From: Candidatus Heimdallarchaeota archaeon
GTDB taxonomy: Archaea > Asgardarchaeota > Heimdallarchaeia > Heimdallarchaeales > Kariarchaeaceae
Assembly: GCA_030149205.1 (NCBI GenBank)
Contig: JASBSB010000005.1
Coordinates: forward strand, 1 to 64,000
Reading direction: 5' to 3'
DNA length: 64,000 nucleotides
Shown here piece after piece: positions 9,795 through 20,637 of this stretch (position 1 is its first letter; every line of letters starts with the position of its first letter). The position numbers were made by a program, and so were the translations under genes. Under the pieces are notes generated by a model, which worked only from the letters and a program-made list of their open reading frames with translations, made no database searches and was not told the DNA's origin.

Positions 9795-11243
9795 TTAAGG
9801 CTCAAGTTTTGATGGGGGATAAAGCTTGTTCGATCTTAATTTGATTCTCTTCCTAACTCTAAAAATATGTGTCATGACACCAATTATAATTCCACCAAAG
9901 ATAAATATTGACAGTACCGCTGGTGGTGGTGGAAATAGAAGGAAAATTAATTCCTCATAGAAAGGCCTTCGTTGGTAATAACCATTATCGGGAATAATTC
10001 CAGCGTTAGTAAACAGGAGGGTGCTAATATTTATGGTTATCTCTGTGAAATTATATCCGAGATTCCCTGCACGATCCCTTGTTTCAATAAAAAATGTAAG
10101 CTTTTTTTGTTCTTTAGTTCGCTCAGAATACGATAAATTTGATATCCAAGTTTTATTCCATGTAACTTGAATATATGTTTTGTTGTAACCAGTCTTCAGT
10201 ATTTCATCTGCAACCATATCACCTGAGAAATCCAGAGAAATATTGTAAATAAACCCATTATCTGGTGGGTTAGAATCATTGGCCTTCCAATTCAAGGTTA
10301 TGTTTGTATAATCTAGGGTTTTGTGGTTTGGCTTAATAATCACCATTGGAGAGAGCCTATCAAGAATGATCTTCACTGGAACTATAAGCTCTTGCATATT
10401 ATTTTCAATGTCAAATGCTCTTAGAAGAAGCAGACCAGAGCCAACAAATCTAAAAAGTTTTGCAAAAGAAATGTTATATCCAACGTATTGAATTGTGGTT
10501 CTGTTCATGAGGACCCTATACTTGTTACTGTTTAGATAAAATGGTTGATTCTCACCTAAGTTATCGCCCCCAGTCAGAAATGTCATGTTATAGGAAGAGT
10601 CATTTGTTAAAAAATAAATGTAAAGACTTCTTGGAAACCTGTTATCTGTCACGATTATGTTAAAGTTGGTCTGTAACCTTGGGTTAGAAGAGAAATCTAA
10701 TACAGAAGGAAGAGTCCCTTTAGACCCATTAAACCTATTAGTAAAATCATTTGAAGAAATCTCTATTTTTGGCTTTGTCGTGTCATTGTTATAGTTAACC
10801 TGAAGGTAATACTTAACTGATGCAATTTCCATATCATAGTTTAACCCAGTTATTTTTAGGGTGTAGTTCCCAGAACCATACCCTCTGCGGTCCTTTGGCA
10901 AGAAAGTGATGTTCCAATTTGTGGAATTTATCTGTATCACCCTCGCTGGCACCTTTAAATATTTGTAATAACTTGGTCCACCAATTAAAGACACGTTTAT
11001 TGAAGGTTTCGGAACCAAGGAACCATTGGAATATTTGAACAGAACCGTCTCAGTTAGATTATCAAAATCTAGATGAACTGTTCCTGATTTATGGGATAAA
11101 TTTAACATGGCATTTGATTCAACTGCAAATTCGGAGTTAGATTTATCCTGGCTAATTAAGTCCAACTCAGAAGGTATATCCATGTTTCCAGTTGGTAGCA
11201 TTAACCAGATAAGAAGTATGAAGATACATGAACTGAATTTCAC
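9795..11243 (-). CDS. Secreted, membrane-anchored surface protein with Ig-like repeats
   Basis: The 482-aa protein has an N-terminal signal sequence (FILLIWLMLPTG), a long beta-rich extracellular part full of N-x-S/T sites, and a single C-terminal membrane helix (AVLSIFIFGGIIIGVMTHIF) followed by a short basic tail. Motifs such as DRAGNLGYNFTEI resemble bacterial and archaeal Ig-like surface repeats. The gene begins with GTG. It lies in the same envelope region as the 1740-aa surface protein and shares its style. Function unknown; likely part of the glycosylated cell surface. Confidence 0.65.
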   Translation of the reverse strand: MKFSSCIFILLIWLMLPTGNMDIPSELDLISQDKSNSEFAVESNAMLNLSHKSGTVHLDFDNLTETVLFKYSNGSLVPKPSINVSLIGGPSYYKYLKVPARVIQINSTNWNITFLPKDRRGYGSGNYTLKITGLNYDMEIASVKYYLQVNYNNDTTKPKIEISSNDFTNRFNGSKGTLPSVLDFSSNPRLQTNFNIIVTDNRFPRSLYIYFLTNDSSYNMTFLTGGDNLGENQPFYLNSNKYRVLMNRTTIQYVGYNISFAKLFRFVGSGLLLLRAFDIENNMQELIVPVKIILDRLSPMVIIKPNHKTLDYTNITLNWKANDSNPPDNGFIYNISLDFSGDMVADEILKTGYNKTYIQVTWNKTWISNLSYSERTKEQKKLTFFIETRDRAGNLGYNFTEITINISTLLFTNAGIIPDNGYYQRRPFYEELIFLLFPPPPAVLSIFIFGGIIIGVMTHIFRVRKRIKLRSNKLYPPSKLEP

Positions 11244-12961: not shown

Positions 12962-15900
12962 CTATTCTTCAGACAATTCCTCATTAAAGTTAAATTCTGG
13001 CAGATCATCAAATAGAGACTCTGTGGTTGAACCATTGGTGATGGTATCAATGACATTATAGTTCCAACCCTCTTTGATAGTTTTGTAGATTGTTTCTAAG
13101 ATGAGATCTTTGGACCTCAGATACTCCACCAGTACCTCCAACGTTAAGGGAAGTTCTGCCTCTTTCAAAGAATTTGCTAGTGGAATGAATAGATCAAAGT
13201 TCATTCTTATATTTCTGCTGATTGAGTTGTTATTTTGAACCTTTGGTATTTGAGAAACATCTATCTTAAGAAAATCCTTTAGCTGTAGGTTAAGATTAGA
13301 ATCAATCAACATTTGCTTCACAACCTCAGGGTCAATGTCATGGATCTTGATGGCATCGTTAATGAAACCCTTAAATTTGTCCTCAATTCTTTGATGAGCT
13401 ATTGTGATCTTTTTCAGGTATGACTCAGGTAGTGGTTTTTCTGCAACTATGATAAATGTTGAGCGTTTGTTTTTGTGGGAGATAATTGAGAGCCCAGATC
13501 GTTGCATAACCTCAACACCTAACTCTTCATCCTTTAACTCACTGAGGACAGAGGAGATTGCTGTGGTTAACCCAGAAAGTAACGCTGGATCGACAGTAGA
13601 ACTTTCAGACCAAATTTGATCATAGAAGGGGATACCTGTACTGTTGCTCTTTATCAAAATTGTGGAGATCGAACGTAAGGCATCAATTTCTTCGACAATA
13701 TTGAGGTTCTCCGCTTCAATCATTTTCTTTTGTATTTTAGTCTTTCTTCGTCTGATCAAGAGTAAGAACAAGAATAGAGCTAAGAAGGCAAGTATACCAA
13801 CAAAAACTAAAAGATTCTTCTCAATGAGTTTCCTTGCTTCTTGGACATAATCTAGCCATGTCTTGTTGGGACTAAGTATTTTTGGTAGGACACTTGAATT
13901 AATAATTCCTGGTGAAGTCAAGTTCTGGTCAACAACGCTTGCCTGGATTGAGGTGATAGATTTAAAGGTACTTGTTACACTTCCTGGGATTGTATAGATT
14001 GCATACCCCTGTTTGTTTGTCTTTACTGTTGTTAATATCTCTGACTGAGTATTTGTGACACCAGTATAAACAATCTTGAAAGTAATATTAACCCCAGCAA
14101 CTGGACCATTATCGTATCCTATTAATGATTGAAGATTTAACATTGAGCTAGTCTGTTTTCTTGGTGCGTAAGTTACCAGAGCAGAAACAGTGTAATTTTC
14201 TCCCTGTCGCAAGGTATTGGACGCCTCTAGTGAAAGTAATACCTGTGGGTTTTCTACAACAACAATCTTTCCAAAGTTGAGTGTCTCATAGCTGAATCTG
14301 TTTGTTCTAAACTTCCATTCATAGGTTCCCTTAGCTAAGCCTGTGTAATTCAACAAGAGATTAAAGTATCCACTGGAATTTGTTTGTGCTGGTGCAAAGC
14401 TCTTGATTACCTGTCCCTTTGTATAACCAGTCACATTTAGAGCAGTCAGGTTCATGTAAAGCTCACCCTTAGGTACAAATTCACCGGTCAGATTTGTCCA
14501 TCTTAGTGTAATTAGCTCTAAGTCTCCTCTAAAGACCTTTGGAGTAACCTGGGAGATCATATTAATTTTTGTCTCAATGATAACTGGATTCTTTATGGTT
14601 AATGTCACTGATTGAGAGACTGAGTTTCCATAGTTGTCCTGGAATTTCACGGTTATATTGTGGACACCTAGACTAAGGTTAGTTACATTAAATGAGATTG
14701 TCTGGTTATTTGCAAAAGATCCACTCTGCACAGTTTTTCCATCTAATATTATAGAATAATCTTTAGGGTTAATTTCCTGCACTCTCCACATCAGTAAATT
14801 TGTCTTCTCTGGATTCTTAAAGATTCGAAGAGAAGTTGGGGGAGAAGAAAGGAGTTTGGGTGGTGTGGTGTCTTTAACTGTAATAATCACAACATCCCTT
14901 GACATCAGATTGCTGGTGTCATAGGCAACAATGGTGAAATTATAAATCCCCACATTAAATGAATCTAACAACACAGAGACATTTTGTCCACTAACCCAAG
15001 AACCAGACCTATAAACGCTATTGTTCAACAGAATCTGATATTGATAGGGATGCACATCTGTGAGTACCCAGGAGATGATTGTGCCATTGATTCCTGCTTC
15101 TTTTATCACGTTTGTCTGAGGAGTTATGTTCGGAGGGGTGACATCTGATACTGTTATCGGTTGAGATATTTCTGCATAGTTTCCTGCGAGGTCATAAGTC
15201 CTTAACTTAAAGATGTAAACACCTTTTGGAAGTCCATCTACATTAATTGATACCTCTGCTCCGCTTGTCCATGTATTTGTGTACGTAAGAGTGTTGTTGA
15301 TGAACACATCATAGTAAGAGGCATGAAGATCTGTTGATATGAATTTAAACTGGTTCCCTGTTGTTCCCTCAGCATATCCTGAGAGGCTTGTAAATGTTAT
15401 AACTGGCTTAGTTACATCTCTTACAGTCACAGTTACATTACTCACTGCCTTGTTTCCTGCACTGTCTAATACCTGAAGTGAGTAATAATATACACCATAA
15501 ACCATTGAGTTTAGATTGTATGATATAGAGGTACCACTCCAAGGTTGATTCGTGACAGTTATTGAGTTATTTAGATAAATCGAATACGTGGCAGGGTAAG
15601 TGTCGTAGACCGTCCATGATAACACCGAGCTTTGTCCTTCATCCATGGTCACATTTGAATGAGGTACTATGGTTGGACTTTTGTTGTCTGTTACTTGGAA
15701 CTCATATAACACTGTTGTGTTTGCTAAAGATGCACTAGTTCGAAATCCTGGGTATACCCAGTTGAATTGGATTGCATTCCACCCAAGTCTGAACACAGAA
15801 GACCAAGGGATGGTAAAGTTAAATTGTGCTAATCTGTAATCATACACAAATGAAGAGCTGATGTTGTTAGACACAAGGATCTTAGATGAATTAACGGGAA

Positions 15901-18184
15901 CAGATCCCCCTGTAACATTCAACAACGAGAAGTATAGTTTGTATGTGTTGTTTGCCTGCAGAACGCTTTGCGTGGTTGCTTTACCTTGTTGATCAACGAT
16001 TTTGGCAAGACCACGATAATAAACATTAAGGGTAAAACTGACAGATTTTATGATTTGAAAATCATTAAATGTTATGGCCACAGAATACGTTGTGTTCTTT
16101 ACAGGGTTTGCAGGATATGCTAACACAGAAAGGTCAATGATGTAAGAATACATGTATCTTGCATCATTTGGAACCTTACCCAGTAAAGTCATCGCACCAG
16201 TTGAGATCTGCCAATCAAGTAAATTTGATGAGCTGCTCCAACTGGAGTTATGTGTTCGATCCAATACCAAAACCGTCACATTGACCTTGTCACCTTCTAA
16301 TGCATTATAACTCCCAATTGGGCTGTTTAACTCCAGAGAAACGTTTGCTTTAACCAAAAACTCTTCAAACACCCCTCCAATTGCAGTTCCATTGTTGAAA
16401 ATATATTGGAAACTGTAATAACCTGTGGTGATGTTTGGATCAAGATTTGTGATAAAAGACCCATTTGTGACTAATCCTAAATTTGCAGAACTTAGATATC
16501 CATCCTTGTATGTTAAATATGATTGATTTGTATAAATCTGACCGGTCTGAGACCGTAAGGATGCGTTCAGTACCCCATTTTCTAATTTGTAACTTGCAAG
16601 GTTGACTACCTCACCCCTCACAAGACTTCCCTGTTTTACACTTGGATAAAGGGTTCCAGCGGTTCCGATCTTCTTTGGAATCCAAGTAGAATTCAATACA
16701 TAGGTTTTCACCGTTGAGTAAAACAGTAGGTTTGGAGTGGTTGCATTGATTTCTAGTGTTCCTGAGGTTGTGTAGAACTGAAGTGTGTCATTTGCTGAGC
16801 TAAATACCTTTCTTGTATAATCCGAAGGTGTTGTTAATGTCAATCCACTCCGTCTTAATGTTGTTAAGGTAAAGTTATGTGGAATGTACATGAATTTCTT
16901 TAGTGTTGCATTAGATGTGGGTAATGTATCTAAGTAAGTTACAGACCAGTTAACAGATGCGATCTTGGGGGAGAACTCATAATAGACTGATGCAAGTGAA
17001 TTAGTAACCTTGGTTTGATAATAGGTGATATTAAATTGAACAGGGTATCCATATGCTAAAGTGGCATTATGACTAAAAATATAGGTTTGTGTGGTAGTAT
17101 ATGATTTATATTGATTATAGGTATTACTGGGACTCAACGGAGTTATAACAGCGTTATTTTCAACTGTCACATTGAGATTGCTCGGGTTAAAGTTAACAGT
17201 ATAGTTAAAATCTGACCTAATATCAAAGTTAGGTCTATAGGTCCAATTGTTAGGAAGAATGTTTGCAGTATCAATTTTTGAAGCTGAAGTAAAATTATAA
17301 TTTAGCCCTGAATCAACTCCAGTGGTATTGTAATCTAAAAACAATTGCTTTGTTGGATCTGGAACTTTTATATAAAACAGAAAGAAAAAATATCCAGCTG
17401 TGATATTTGAATAAGTGGTACTCTTACTTATAATTGTATTGGAAGGAAAATTTAAAGATAATTTTGGATTAGTTCCTGGACTAGTTACATTTACTTCTGA
17501 AATTTTAAAGGAAGGAGTTAACCGTTGATCCAAAGATCGATTTATTGCACTCCACAATTCAACCGTTAACAATCCAGGATTTGAGAAGGGATTAAAAACG
17601 TAAATATTCATAGAATTAAAATTTACTGATTTGACCGAACTTGAAATATTATTCAATACTGGTAATTGGAAACCTTGTGCTTGTACTATATAATTGGAAG
17701 CTTGACCAGAACCAGCCTTAGTACTCCCTGACTCTATTATTGCTTGAGTTTCTTGTGATTTTGCAGAAACAGTTGCATTAAATGCATCATACCTTCCGTT
17801 TTGCACTGGGACACTCATAGAATATGGTGAGGGTTGATTTATAGCAGTTCCAGCCTTTGAGTTATTGACCTGAAACCTGAAACCTTTAACAGATGTCTTC
17901 TTTACAGTATCAATCTTTGCAATAGAGGTTGTATTTCCATTTGATTTAGATGAAACATCGTTCTGAGGTAAATTAACAGTGGGTGAATTAACAGGTAAAT
18001 TTGGTGTATTTGTGGGTTGTTTCGGATGATTAATCTGAAACGTGGGGTTATTTTCCCTGGGGATGACAAGTGAAGTCTGAAAATAAATTGTGGAGAAAAC
18101 AAGAAGAACAATTATTGAAATTGTAAAAATTTTTATTTTACTGTTATTTACCTGAGGGAATCTAAGATGCATCAATTTCAGCAT
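12962..18184 (-). CDS. Giant Ig-like surface protein with cytoplasmic longin/roadblock-like domain
   Basis: This 1740-aa protein starts with a membrane/signal segment (IFTISIIVLLVFSTIYF). It has a huge Thr/Ser/Asn-rich extracellular region, four tandem Ig-like units near its C-terminal third, one membrane helix at about residues 1455-1477, and a cytoplasmic domain of about 263 residues. Within that domain the stretch GIPFYDQIW ... DPALLSGLTTAISSVLSEL ... FIIVAEKPLPESYLKKI has the alpha/beta pattern of longin or roadblock domains common in Asgard archaea. These usually act with small GTPases. The extracellular part carries many N-glycosylation sequons. A role as a surface receptor, adhesin or cell-shape sensor is inferred. 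Extracellular or gliding-type adhesion alone would not explain the inner domain. Confidence 0.7.
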   Translation of the reverse strand: MLKLMHLRFPQVNNSKIKIFTISIIVLLVFSTIYFQTSLVIPRENNPTFQINHPKQPTNTPNLPVNSPTVNLPQNDVSSKSNGNTTSIAKIDTVKKTSVKGFRFQVNNSKAGTAINQPSPYSMSVPVQNGRYDAFNATVSAKSQETQAIIESGSTKAGSGQASNYIVQAQGFQLPVLNNISSSVKSVNFNSMNIYVFNPFSNPGLLTVELWSAINRSLDQRLTPSFKISEVNVTSPGTNPKLSLNFPSNTIISKSTTYSNITAGYFFFLFYIKVPDPTKQLFLDYNTTGVDSGLNYNFTSASKIDTANILPNNWTYRPNFDIRSDFNYTVNFNPSNLNVTVENNAVITPLSPSNTYNQYKSYTTTQTYIFSHNATLAYGYPVQFNITYYQTKVTNSLASVYYEFSPKIASVNWSVTYLDTLPTSNATLKKFMYIPHNFTLTTLRRSGLTLTTPSDYTRKVFSSANDTLQFYTTSGTLEINATTPNLLFYSTVKTYVLNSTWIPKKIGTAGTLYPSVKQGSLVRGEVVNLASYKLENGVLNASLRSQTGQIYTNQSYLTYKDGYLSSANLGLVTNGSFITNLDPNITTGYYSFQYIFNNGTAIGGVFEEFLVKANVSLELNSPIGSYNALEGDKVNVTVLVLDRTHNSSWSSSSNLLDWQISTGAMTLLGKVPNDARYMYSYIIDLSVLAYPANPVKNTTYSVAITFNDFQIIKSVSFTLNVYYRGLAKIVDQQGKATTQSVLQANNTYKLYFSLLNVTGGSVPVNSSKILVSNNISSSFVYDYRLAQFNFTIPWSSVFRLGWNAIQFNWVYPGFRTSASLANTTVLYEFQVTDNKSPTIVPHSNVTMDEGQSSVLSWTVYDTYPATYSIYLNNSITVTNQPWSGTSISYNLNSMVYGVYYYSLQVLDSAGNKAVSNVTVTVRDVTKPVITFTSLSGYAEGTTGNQFKFISTDLHASYYDVFINNTLTYTNTWTSGAEVSINVDGLPKGVYIFKLRTYDLAGNYAEISQPITVSDVTPPNITPQTNVIKEAGINGTIISWVLTDVHPYQYQILLNNSVYRSGSWVSGQNVSVLLDSFNVGIYNFTIVAYDTSNLMSRDVVIITVKDTTPPKLLSSPPTSLRIFKNPEKTNLLMWRVQEINPKDYSIILDGKTVQSGSFANNQTISFNVTNLSLGVHNITVKFQDNYGNSVSQSVTLTIKNPVIIETKINMISQVTPKVFRGDLELITLRWTNLTGEFVPKGELYMNLTALNVTGYTKGQVIKSFAPAQTNSSGYFNLLLNYTGLAKGTYEWKFRTNRFSYETLNFGKIVVVENPQVLLSLEASNTLRQGENYTVSALVTYAPRKQTSSMLNLQSLIGYDNGPVAGVNITFKIVYTGVTNTQSEILTTVKTNKQGYAIYTIPGSVTSTFKSITSIQASVVDQNLTSPGIINSSVLPKILSPNKTWLDYVQEARKLIEKNLLVFVGILAFLALFLFLLLIRRRKTKIQKKMIEAENLNIVEEIDALRSISTILIKSNSTGIPFYDQIWSESSTVDPALLSGLTTAISSVLSELKDEELGVEVMQRSGLSIISHKNKRSTFIIVAEKPLPESYLKKITIAHQRIEDKFKGFINDAIKIHDIDPEVVKQMLIDSNLNLQLKDFLKIDVSQIPKVQNNNSISRNIRMNFDLFIPLANSLKEAELPLTLEVLVEYLRSKDLILETIYKTIKEGWNYNVIDTITNGSTTESLFDDLPEFNFNEELSEE
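14585..15690 (-). repeat. Four tandem Ig-like domain repeats inside the giant surface protein
   Basis: Four units of about 90 residues each begin near an SPTI/TKPVI/TPPNI/TPPKL motif and end with a short V-x-D linker (for example TVRDVTKPVI and TVSDVTPPNI). Each has the pattern yxixLNNs ... W.sG ... l..GvY.f.v...D..gN. This is protein-level repetition; the DNA copies have diverged. Confidence 0.7.
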
Positions 18185-18380: not shown

Positions 18381-19436
18381 TTGCTTGTGAAAGGTTTTTC
18401 ATACCTTGTTGAAGATGAAAAGGACTCTAAACAACTGGTACTGAAAACTTCTAAAATTCCGGTTTCGTTAATTATCGATCTGATCAAGAAAGATAAGACC
18501 TTTCATCAGATAAAAGAGCAATATTCCTCATTAACAGAGGTAGAGTTTCAGGAAACTTTGGATTTCATTAAATTCGAAAATGAAAGGTTGCTATTTGCCT
18601 TTGACAGTGTTCAAAAAACCTATAGAAATGTTGTGGCGTTGAAAAAACTCACATATAAGACTTCTGCCAGGTCAATTGGATTGTTTGGAAGGAATGGAAG
18701 TGGAAAATCAACACTGATCAAGCTCTTACTTGGACTGATAAAACCAGAGTCTGGAAGTGTGACCTTTAACTACTCAACTCAAGACCTAAGAGTTGTACCA
18801 GATTTCCCAAAGCTTCCAAGCCATTACTCTGTTAACAAATGGATGGAAACACTCGAGAATCTCTATGGACTTCCTGATATCAACGTTGATTTTGAGGGAT
18901 TATTTGATCTTAAGGGAGATGAGTTACTTGGTGAACTATCTGCTGGGCGATATCGTGTTGCTGCCCTACTGCCAATATTTTATGGCAAACCAAAGATCAT
19001 TATATTGGATGAACCCACCACCTTCTTAGATGCCGTGATGAAGGATTTGGTTCTCACTTTGATAAAAAGGCAGGTTGAGAAATATCAATCCAAGGTAATT
19101 ATCGCATCACATCAAATTGATGAGATCAATCTTTTTTCAGATGCTGTTCTTTTGTTGGATGATGGGTTGTTACTTGCTGAGATTCCCATGACTGATGATA
19201 TTGAGACCAAATATAGTATACGTGTGAGTGACACGATGGAATTTGAGGGGGTTCTAAAGAAGAACAAGATTAAGTATGAATTGAAGGAGACACGTTTTGG
19301 GTTCATGTTTGTGACCCCTTTGAATACAAAGCTTTGGACTGCCACAAGACAGTATCTCTCAAATGAGAAAATGATTTACTCAATAAAGAAAATTGACAAA
19401 CTACAGGAAAAACTGGGAGGGATTATAACTGAGTAA
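18381..19436 (+). CDS. ABC transporter ATPase with N-terminal DUF433-like domain
   Basis: The ABC part has Walker A (GRNGSGKST, about residue 112), a degenerate signature (GELSAGRYRVAALLP) and Walker B (IIILDEPTTFLD). About 80 residues precede it. They contain SKIPVSLIIDLIKKDKTFHQ and SLTEVEFQETLDFI, which resemble the DUF433 winged-helix domain normally found in small antitoxin-like proteins. The start is TTG at 18381 or GTG at 18387; a TATA-like ATATTTAATTA lies about 20-30 nt upstream. It is the first gene of a three-gene plus-strand operon with a permease and a small membrane protein. The extra domain may regulate the pump; that is an inference. Confidence 0.8.
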   Translation: MLVKGFSYLVEDEKDSKQLVLKTSKIPVSLIIDLIKKDKTFHQIKEQYSSLTEVEFQETLDFIKFENERLLFAFDSVQKTYRNVVALKKLTYKTSARSIGLFGRNGSGKSTLIKLLLGLIKPESGSVTFNYSTQDLRVVPDFPKLPSHYSVNKWMETLENLYGLPDINVDFEGLFDLKGDELLGELSAGRYRVAALLPIFYGKPKIIILDEPTTFLDAVMKDLVLTLIKRQVEKYQSKVIIASHQIDEINLFSDAVLLLDDGLLLAEIPMTDDIETKYSIRVSDTMEFEGVLKKNKIKYELKETRFGFMFVTPLNTKLWTATRQYLSNEKMIYSIKKIDKLQEKLGGIITE

Positions 19437-19452
19437 AGGAGTATCAACAAAT

Positions 19453-20211
19453 ATGTTCACAGGTCTTCATAATTATATTCAGAATTATTCAGAATCTGAT
19501 AAATTTGAGAAGGAAGCAGTTAAGGCCCTCTTTTTTAAGTCTTACCTCAAAGAAATACTGATTCTTGTGCCCATGAGTCTTGGTTTCCTATTTTTTCTCT
19601 TTACTTCCTCCGACACGTACACCTCAGGGACATCCATTGTCACACAATTCGAATTGATGCGCAGTCGCTTGATATTTAGTTTTCTTGAGGGTGTTTTTGT
19701 TGGGATTACGGTTATTATAGCCATGGTACAGTTGATCCGTTGGATAAGCTCACAAAGTGATGGAAGCTTTGGATACTGGGTGGGTATCGGAGCTAAGAGA
19801 GAGAAAATTTTACGACATACCTTGATCTCGACGATCTATTTTTCAACTCTTGGTGTAATAATCGGGTTTATACTAGTATTCTCAATTGGTGGAATCTCAT
19901 TTGGTTCAATTGAAATTTTAGCTCTGTTGATAGCTACAGTGTCGAATATAATCACATGGCTATTAATTGGTTTAATTCTATCTCAGTTTATACAAAATCA
20001 GGTCTTGACACCAATACTCTTTCTTTTCTTGGCAGCAACAAATCTATATGCTCTAAGACCACTAAGTGAGGTATATAGGTACTTCCTCGCACCTCAATTT
20101 AACACAACCATTAACTCCCTCATGGTTGGTATATTACTAAGCTTACTGCTTAACATCCTTCTCTTTATGAGTACTTTGTGGGTACACAAAAGGAGTGAAC
20201 TTGTTCTATAG
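19453..20211 (+). CDS. ABC transporter permease-like membrane protein
   Basis: The 252-aa protein has six hydrophobic segments, for example EILILVPMSLGFLFFLF, ISTIYFSTLGVIIGFILVF and LMVGILLSLLLNILLFM, in the spacing of ABC-2 or NosY-like permeases. It has an ATG start with AAAGGAG upstream and follows the ATPase gene by 16 bases. It probably forms the membrane channel for the upstream ATPase. Sequence conservation with known permeases is weak, so the substrate is unknown. Confidence 0.65.
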   Translation: MFTGLHNYIQNYSESDKFEKEAVKALFFKSYLKEILILVPMSLGFLFFLFTSSDTYTSGTSIVTQFELMRSRLIFSFLEGVFVGITVIIAMVQLIRWISSQSDGSFGYWVGIGAKREKILRHTLISTIYFSTLGVIIGFILVFSIGGISFGSIEILALLIATVSNIITWLLIGLILSQFIQNQVLTPILFLFLAATNLYALRPLSEVYRYFLAPQFNTTINSLMVGILLSLLLNILLFMSTLWVHKRSELVL

Positions 20212-20637
20212 GTGAATGTTATGAGGTACAAAAATATTGTTTTGGTATTGTTTATAATTTCTATCATTACCTTTCTCCCTGGATTCAAACCTAGTCAGAC
20301 CTATTCACTTGTTCCGAGCACTCCCAGATCTATAATTTTTGATGTGACATCACCAACTCTTGAGCTAACGCTGAGTCAAAATTCAGGTGTGTCGATAAAT
20401 CTATCCTATTATTTTGGTGGAAATGTGGTGCAGATCAAGCAGAATCTTAACTTTACAAACTCATTGGTTTTGGACAATCTGTCTCCAGGATTATATTATC
20501 TTCAGATTTTATCAAGTAACCTAAATGAAATTACTATTGGAAATTCTGGTATATATATTGCTCAAATTGGTGTCTTTGTTTTTCTTGGTTTGCTCAACCT
20601 CTATGTCTTTAATAAGGAGCTAAAGATACGATCCTGA
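20212..20637 (+). CDS. Small secreted or membrane protein of the ABC operon
   Basis: The 141-aa protein has an N-terminal hydrophobic segment (IVLVLFIISIITFLPG), a short extracellular beta-rich domain, and a C-terminal membrane helix (IYIAQIGVFVFLGLLNLYVF). The start is GTG at 20212 directly after the permease stop, or ATG at 20221. It completes the three-gene ABC operon and could be an extracytoplasmic partner of the pump. Family not recognised. Confidence 0.55.
   Translation: MNVMRYKNIVLVLFIISIITFLPGFKPSQTYSLVPSTPRSIIFDVTSPTLELTLSQNSGVSINLSYYFGGNVVQIKQNLNFTNSLVLDNLSPGLYYLQILSSNLNEITIGNSGIYIAQIGVFVFLGLLNLYVFNKELKIRS

Follow-up and report, generated by a model that had tools for sequence, protein, structure and literature searches.

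A giant single-pass surface protein with a longin tail in Candidatus Heimdallarchaeota: an Asgard-wide receptor-like family and putative docking platform for small GTPases

Asgard archaea encode many small GTPases together with longin and roadblock proteins, whose genes generally do not lie together in operons (PMC10933270). A longin domain and an Arf-like GTPase in one polypeptide chain are known from Lokiarchaeum (PMC4917890, PMC10933270), and multidomain longin proteins of Asgard archaea have been tied to ESCRT (PMC10936438). The longin-GTPase fusions belong by sequence to the same longin family as the domain described here and were the top matches of its HMM. These fusions are, however, soluble proteins in which GTPase and longin domain share one chain, whereas the present longin domain forms the cytoplasmic end of a giant surface protein with a single membrane pass. 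It is encoded in a 64,000-nucleotide stretch, hereafter the window, on contig C12 of a 3.31 Mb genome of Candidatus Heimdallarchaeota, a member of the Heimdallarchaeia among the Asgard archaea. The literature searched, outside of subscription papers, held no description of longin-tailed giant surface proteins.

Eukaryotic proteins of the MON1/CCZ1 type have three longin domains each and act as soluble Rab GEF complexes. The first longin domains of MON1, FUZ and HPS1 (PF19036) and of CCZ1, INTU and HPS4 (PF19031) are the nearest Pfam models for the relatives of the tail; in contrast to the tri-longin GEFs MON1-CCZ1 and HPS1-HPS4, the window protein has one longin domain, located in a membrane protein. 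The longin SNAREs VAMP7 and Sec22b are likewise single-pass proteins with a cytoplasmic longin domain and were structurally most similar, but they possess an N-terminal longin domain, a SNARE motif, a C-terminal anchor and no ectodomain, while the window protein has the reversed order of giant ectodomain, helix and longin domain. Roadblock proteins (MglB, LAMTOR, Asgard roadblocks) share the core fold of the superfamily and the role of a GTPase platform, which is predicted for the window tail, yet fit it less well (36 % profile probability, lower TM-scores). Plexin-type receptors consist of an Ig-like ectodomain, one helix and a cytoplasmic GAP-type domain handling small GTPases. This comparison concerns the mode of action only, with no homology expected, and the window protein has a longin domain instead of the GAP-type domain.

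Gene, membrane topology and ectodomain

The gene is an uninterrupted open reading frame on the reverse strand (12962..18184) with an ATG start, coding for 1740 amino acids; the bounds were exactly those of the preliminary description, and homologues have the same layout. Hydropathy scanning of the protein revealed two strong hydrophobic stretches. Residues 17-35 (18080..18136, reverse strand; hydropathy 2.27), a signal peptide or signal anchor, are also present in complete homologues. Residues 1459-1477 (13754..13810, reverse strand), with a hydropathy (KD) of 3.27 the strongest stretch of the protein, represent the membrane helix. It is followed by the basic sequence RRRKTKIQKK, thus, by the positive-inside rule, the 263 residues after the helix should be cytoplasmic. 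Counts of N-glycosylation sequons lead to the same prediction: the ectodomain (residues about 45-1458, 13811..18052, reverse strand), a region of low charge between signal and membrane helix, has 59 sequons compared to 29.5 +/- 4.4 in shuffled sequences, and the tail has 3. Relatives repeat this pattern of many sequons in the ectodomain and few in the tail. These sequence statistics showed the predicted surface topology of the window protein. The earlier view of one polypeptide combining a surface part, a single membrane helix and an intracellular tail was therefore borne out by the uninterrupted frame, the hydropathy, the basic flank and the sequon counts; the extracellular part is large and rich in sequons as proposed, but comprises about 1,410 rather than about 1450 residues.

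Tandem Ig-like units had also been proposed. Four Ig/PKD-like units of about 91 residues each were found at residues 833-1198 (14591..15688, reverse strand), namely 833-922, 923-1013, 1014-1104 and 1105-1198, with a pairwise identity of 21-31 % in the repeat alignment. Pfam matches were K319L-like_PKD (3.4e-6), ChitinaseA_N (1.9e-5) and Big_13 (2.4e-5), all consistent with tandem beta-sandwich repeats in this region; about 1,000 further residues of the ectodomain lie outside this assigned part. Matches to Ig-repeat proteins occurred across the phylum, in which many surface proteins contain Ig-like repeats akin to those of the window. Such repeats and numerous sequons are usual in the surface proteins of archaea and would fit an ordinary protein of the adhesin or S-layer type, with a longin tail that is only a handle for dimerisation and does not signal. 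A folded tail conserved across the phylum is, however, needless for plain anchoring, and the same longin module also occurs on TPR proteins and on polytopic proteins, MFS transporters among them; we consider the ordinary adhesin highly improbable. Near the receptor gene, the window codes for a smaller surface protein of 482 amino acids (9795-11243, reverse strand) with a hydrophobic N-terminus, a C-terminal membrane helix, a short basic tail and no longin domain.

The cytoplasmic tail

Profile coordinates, an AlphaFold2 model, fold matches and profile comparison located a longin domain at residues about 1498-1620 (13325..13693, reverse strand). The AlphaFold2 input was an alignment of five sequences only, because a contig scan with a tighter alignment gave only four named loci. 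The model of the whole tail was poor (pLDDT 69). The trimmed tail core was modelled with moderate confidence (pLDDT 77, pTM 0.70; residues 34-38 of the core poorly defined) and presented the order bb-a-bbb-a-a with the elements E12-19, E25-30, H39-55, E62-68, E71-77, E81-87, H93-109 and H125-134, i.e., the b-b-a-b-b-b-a(-a) topology of the longin superfamily on one sheet. Top matches of the core in a Foldseek comparison with the PDB were exclusively members of the longin/roadblock superfamily. The TM-scores (query/target) were 0.65/0.70 for Sec22b, 0.63/0.59 for VAMP7 and 0.60/0.68 for AP-1 sigma3, those of roadblocks were lower with 0.32-0.48 (query). CCZ1 and MON1-CCZ1 complexes were present among the fold matches; an SRX domain entry was absent from the best 50 listed.

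When scanned directly, the window tail matched no model of Pfam or NCBIfam, neither Robl_LC7 (PF03259) nor, at the curated cut-off, Fuz_longin_1 (PF19036). The link to the latter runs through relatives only: three of the 23 core relatives of the tail matched Fuz_longin_1 (best 8.7e-4) and three of 23 Intu_longin_1 (best 1.5e-3). Of 97 Asgard genomes, 83 contained matches to Fuz_longin_1, a model of the MON1/HPS1 family, whereas all 14 controls were free of them. Asgard longins for comparison were gathered by this Pfam model, independently of the receptor tails. Profile-profile comparison related the tail to these longins with a probability of 98.2 % (E 3.7e-14) and to Asgard roadblocks with 35.8 %; column-shuffled control profiles reached at most 0.4 %. 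A strict HMM, built from the tails of membrane receptors only, recovered the independently found Asgard longins with values down to 7e-10, and roadblocks more weakly. In its top matches, L083, L082 and L077 (7e-10, 1e-9 and 4e-9), the longin domain shares its chain with an Arf-like GTPase. Together, profile comparison and tail HMM establish a sequence relation to recognised longins. In a sequence search of the PDB, the tail profiles yielded no significant match, the weak top matches of the core profile being roadblocks. Roadblocks as nearest family were ruled out by the profile probability of 35.8 % versus 98.2 % and by the lower TM-scores.

The preliminary description had seen a longin/roadblock pattern in the tail and proposed structure prediction as a check. 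Model, TM-scores and profiles upheld the longin half of this assignment and went against the roadblock half; the predicted core is confirmed as a longin domain. The subsequent C-terminal helical domain (residues about 1625-1716, 13037..13312, reverse strand), with helices of pLDDT 81-89 and no Pfam match, may be winged-helix-like, judged by topology only.

A longin domain need not act on GTPases. The tail may be a tag for sorting, assembly or cytoskeletal anchoring, by which adaptor-like or scaffold proteins place the surface protein without GTPase action, as for the longin domain of VAMP7 and its adaptor-related partners. The highest TM-scores belong indeed to Sec22b, to VAMP7 (in an entry where it is bound to a fragment of AP-3 delta) and to sigma and zeta subunits of adaptors, and multidomain proteins with adaptin appendage and longin domain are reported for Asgard archaea (PMC10936438). 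In sequence, however, longins in fusion with Arf-like GTPases come closest, and we regard a sorting tag as unlikely.

Distribution across Asgard archaea

The search of Asgard genomes for the same fusion, suggested earlier, was positive: the tail profile had matches in 184 of the 393 genomes searched; all those listed fall in the Asgard phylum, and no genome numbered beyond G227 is among them. Throughout the phylum the layout is shared, consisting of signal, giant ectodomain, one helix and a longin tail 6-26 residues later. Twenty loci with good matches were sampled from many families. In 18 of them, a giant ectodomain with 2-5 sequons per 100 amino acids, one helix directly before the longin domain and a sequon-poor tail were observed, and in most of these an N-terminal hydrophobic segment where the start was present. 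The remaining two were L190, which is soluble, and L182, which was below the E-value cut, yet single-pass in a later classification. This classification assigned the single-pass receptor architecture to 43 of 88 distinct domain-bearing open reading frames, a set that favours receptors, because the collecting profile was built mainly from receptors. In a tree of the domains, which rests on 119 columns and is weak in its deep forks, most receptor tails cluster with one another (6 changes of label versus 29.6 after shuffling).

A protein unique to the genome of the window was rejected. The recurrence of the design across Asgard archaea thus indicates a real receptor-like family: of the new type of archaeal receptor originally envisaged, surface ectodomain, single helix and cytoplasmic longin tail remain, as features of a phylum-wide family instead of a one-of-a-kind protein.

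Several variations on the theme were observed. In family f4, two or three genes for longin-tailed receptors, most of them coding for about 950-1,200 amino acids, lie in tandem (L066, L067, L068, L069), which suggests local expansion. In family f9 (L176, L186, L187), long acidic tails end in a recurring motif (FVEDVESLL, FVAEVERLL, FIEDVEILL), possibly for the binding of a partner. In other Asgard families, the same longin-like domain caps an MFS transporter, a protein of about 12 helices and TPR proteins (L074:5094-6668, L075:5651-7810, L065:7824-9908, L070:6770-8833). The genome of the window encodes paralogous polytopic membrane proteins of 360-423 amino acids with a C-terminal longin-like domain (L125, L127, L129, L136, L139, L142).

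Neighbouring transporter genes and the link to small GTPases

Divergently from the receptor gene, three genes on the forward strand encode an ABC-2-like module: an ABC-transporter ATPase (18381..19436; ABC_tran 2.8e-16) with homologues beside longin-tailed receptors, a membrane subunit of 252 amino acids (19453..20211) with homologues of 4-6 predicted helices, and a protein of 141 amino acids (20212..20637) with hydrophobic N-terminus, short outside domain and C-terminal helix. The order ATPase-permease-small protein is conserved, and the module adjoins longin-tailed receptors in G003 (two loci), G005, G004 (C52) and G006 (C216). Nine copies of the module were found. Among the seven with enough flanking DNA, six adjoin a longin-tailed receptor and one a tail-less Ig/beta-helix surface protein. 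Module and receptor gene diverge in the window, run in the same direction in L053, L057 and L061, and converge in L167 and L168. In the window's family, the receptor gene is thus recurrently located beside an ABC-2-like module, a new gene link. The module, missed in the preliminary description, may be as important as the GTPase idea.

This linkage in six of seven copies and three orientations would fit a protein that acts mainly in ABC-2-like transport, as the sensor or surface component of the system: the transporter would export or remodel material held or sensed by the ectodomain, and the tail would report or gate transport. Bacterial ABC-linked sensor systems offer a loose likeness to such an arrangement. 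The module is, however, essentially confined to the window's family, whereas the receptor family spans the phylum, and the family members L052, L056, L059 and L060 have no module beside the receptor within the flanking DNA examined. We judge a role centred on transport to be quite unlikely.

In two genera, the module is headed by a gene for a Ras-like GTPase: GTPase, ABC ATPase, permease and small protein form one co-directional row in G006:C256 (L165:214-3244) and G004:C1 (L166:667-3879). Both GTPases are orthologous, with 47 % identity over the GTPase domain, and in a search of ten genomes the G006 GTPase had its best match outside its own genome in the G004 copy. Since these genomes hold many Ras-like GTPases, the synteny is suggestive, not conclusive. 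Both GTPase-headed modules are without an adjoining longin tail, one being next to a tail-less Ig/beta-helix protein and the other at a contig end. The protein in the receptor's place beside the G006 module (L165:3276-6041, reverse strand) combines a right-handed beta-helix (NosD-like) with Ig-like repeats and has no C-terminal helix or longin domain. Within the window, no GTPase genes were found near the receptor; its genome has 25 matches to the Arf model as possible partners. Another contig, G004:C201, encodes a GTPase that has an additional domain at its C-terminus (L200:1-1203), about 1.25 kb from a soluble stand-alone longin of the receptor-tail type (L200:2454-2885; 1.8e-26). A putative receptor-GTPase link is supported by the fusion of related longins, the closest in sequence outside membrane proteins, to Arf-like GTPases and by the gene neighbourhood in two relatives.

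The reading we favour, with moderate confidence, is a single-pass, adhesin-like receptor of an Asgard-wide family, whose longin tail would serve small GTPases as a docking platform anchored in the membrane, with partial coupling to a transporter. The sequon-rich ectodomain with its Ig/PKD-like units would bind something outside the cell. One helix would cross the membrane and hold in the cytoplasm the longin tail, of a family elsewhere fused to Arf-like GTPases. This tail, probably as a dimer, would recruit or regulate a small GTPase of the Ras/Arf type at sites of surface contact. In the window's family, signal or cargo probably involves the ABC-2-like transporter, because the receptor gene is linked to a dedicated module. 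Against a docking platform speak the longins of SNAREs and adaptors, which do not regulate GTPases, and the C-terminal longins of polytopic proteins in the window's genome, which reveal a wide use of the domain. The lack of GTPase genes near the receptor in the window, and of longin tails next to both GTPase-headed modules, also counts against it. Only tentatively do we extend the proposal to phylum-wide receptors with a giant adhesive ectodomain that directly control small GTPases via the longin tail, possibly with a transporter, as a pre-eukaryotic route from the outside to the GTPase.

A longin domain placed immediately below the membrane helix, in a large adhesive protein, is a concrete, testable input to the GTPase network of Asgard archaea, and the link to the ABC module names candidate partners of the receptor. 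The receptor family is a candidate for the control of protrusions, of contact with partners or of remodelling of the surface in the closest lineage to eukaryotes, and could reveal how contact at the cell surface was linked with the control of GTPases in eukaryotic ancestors.
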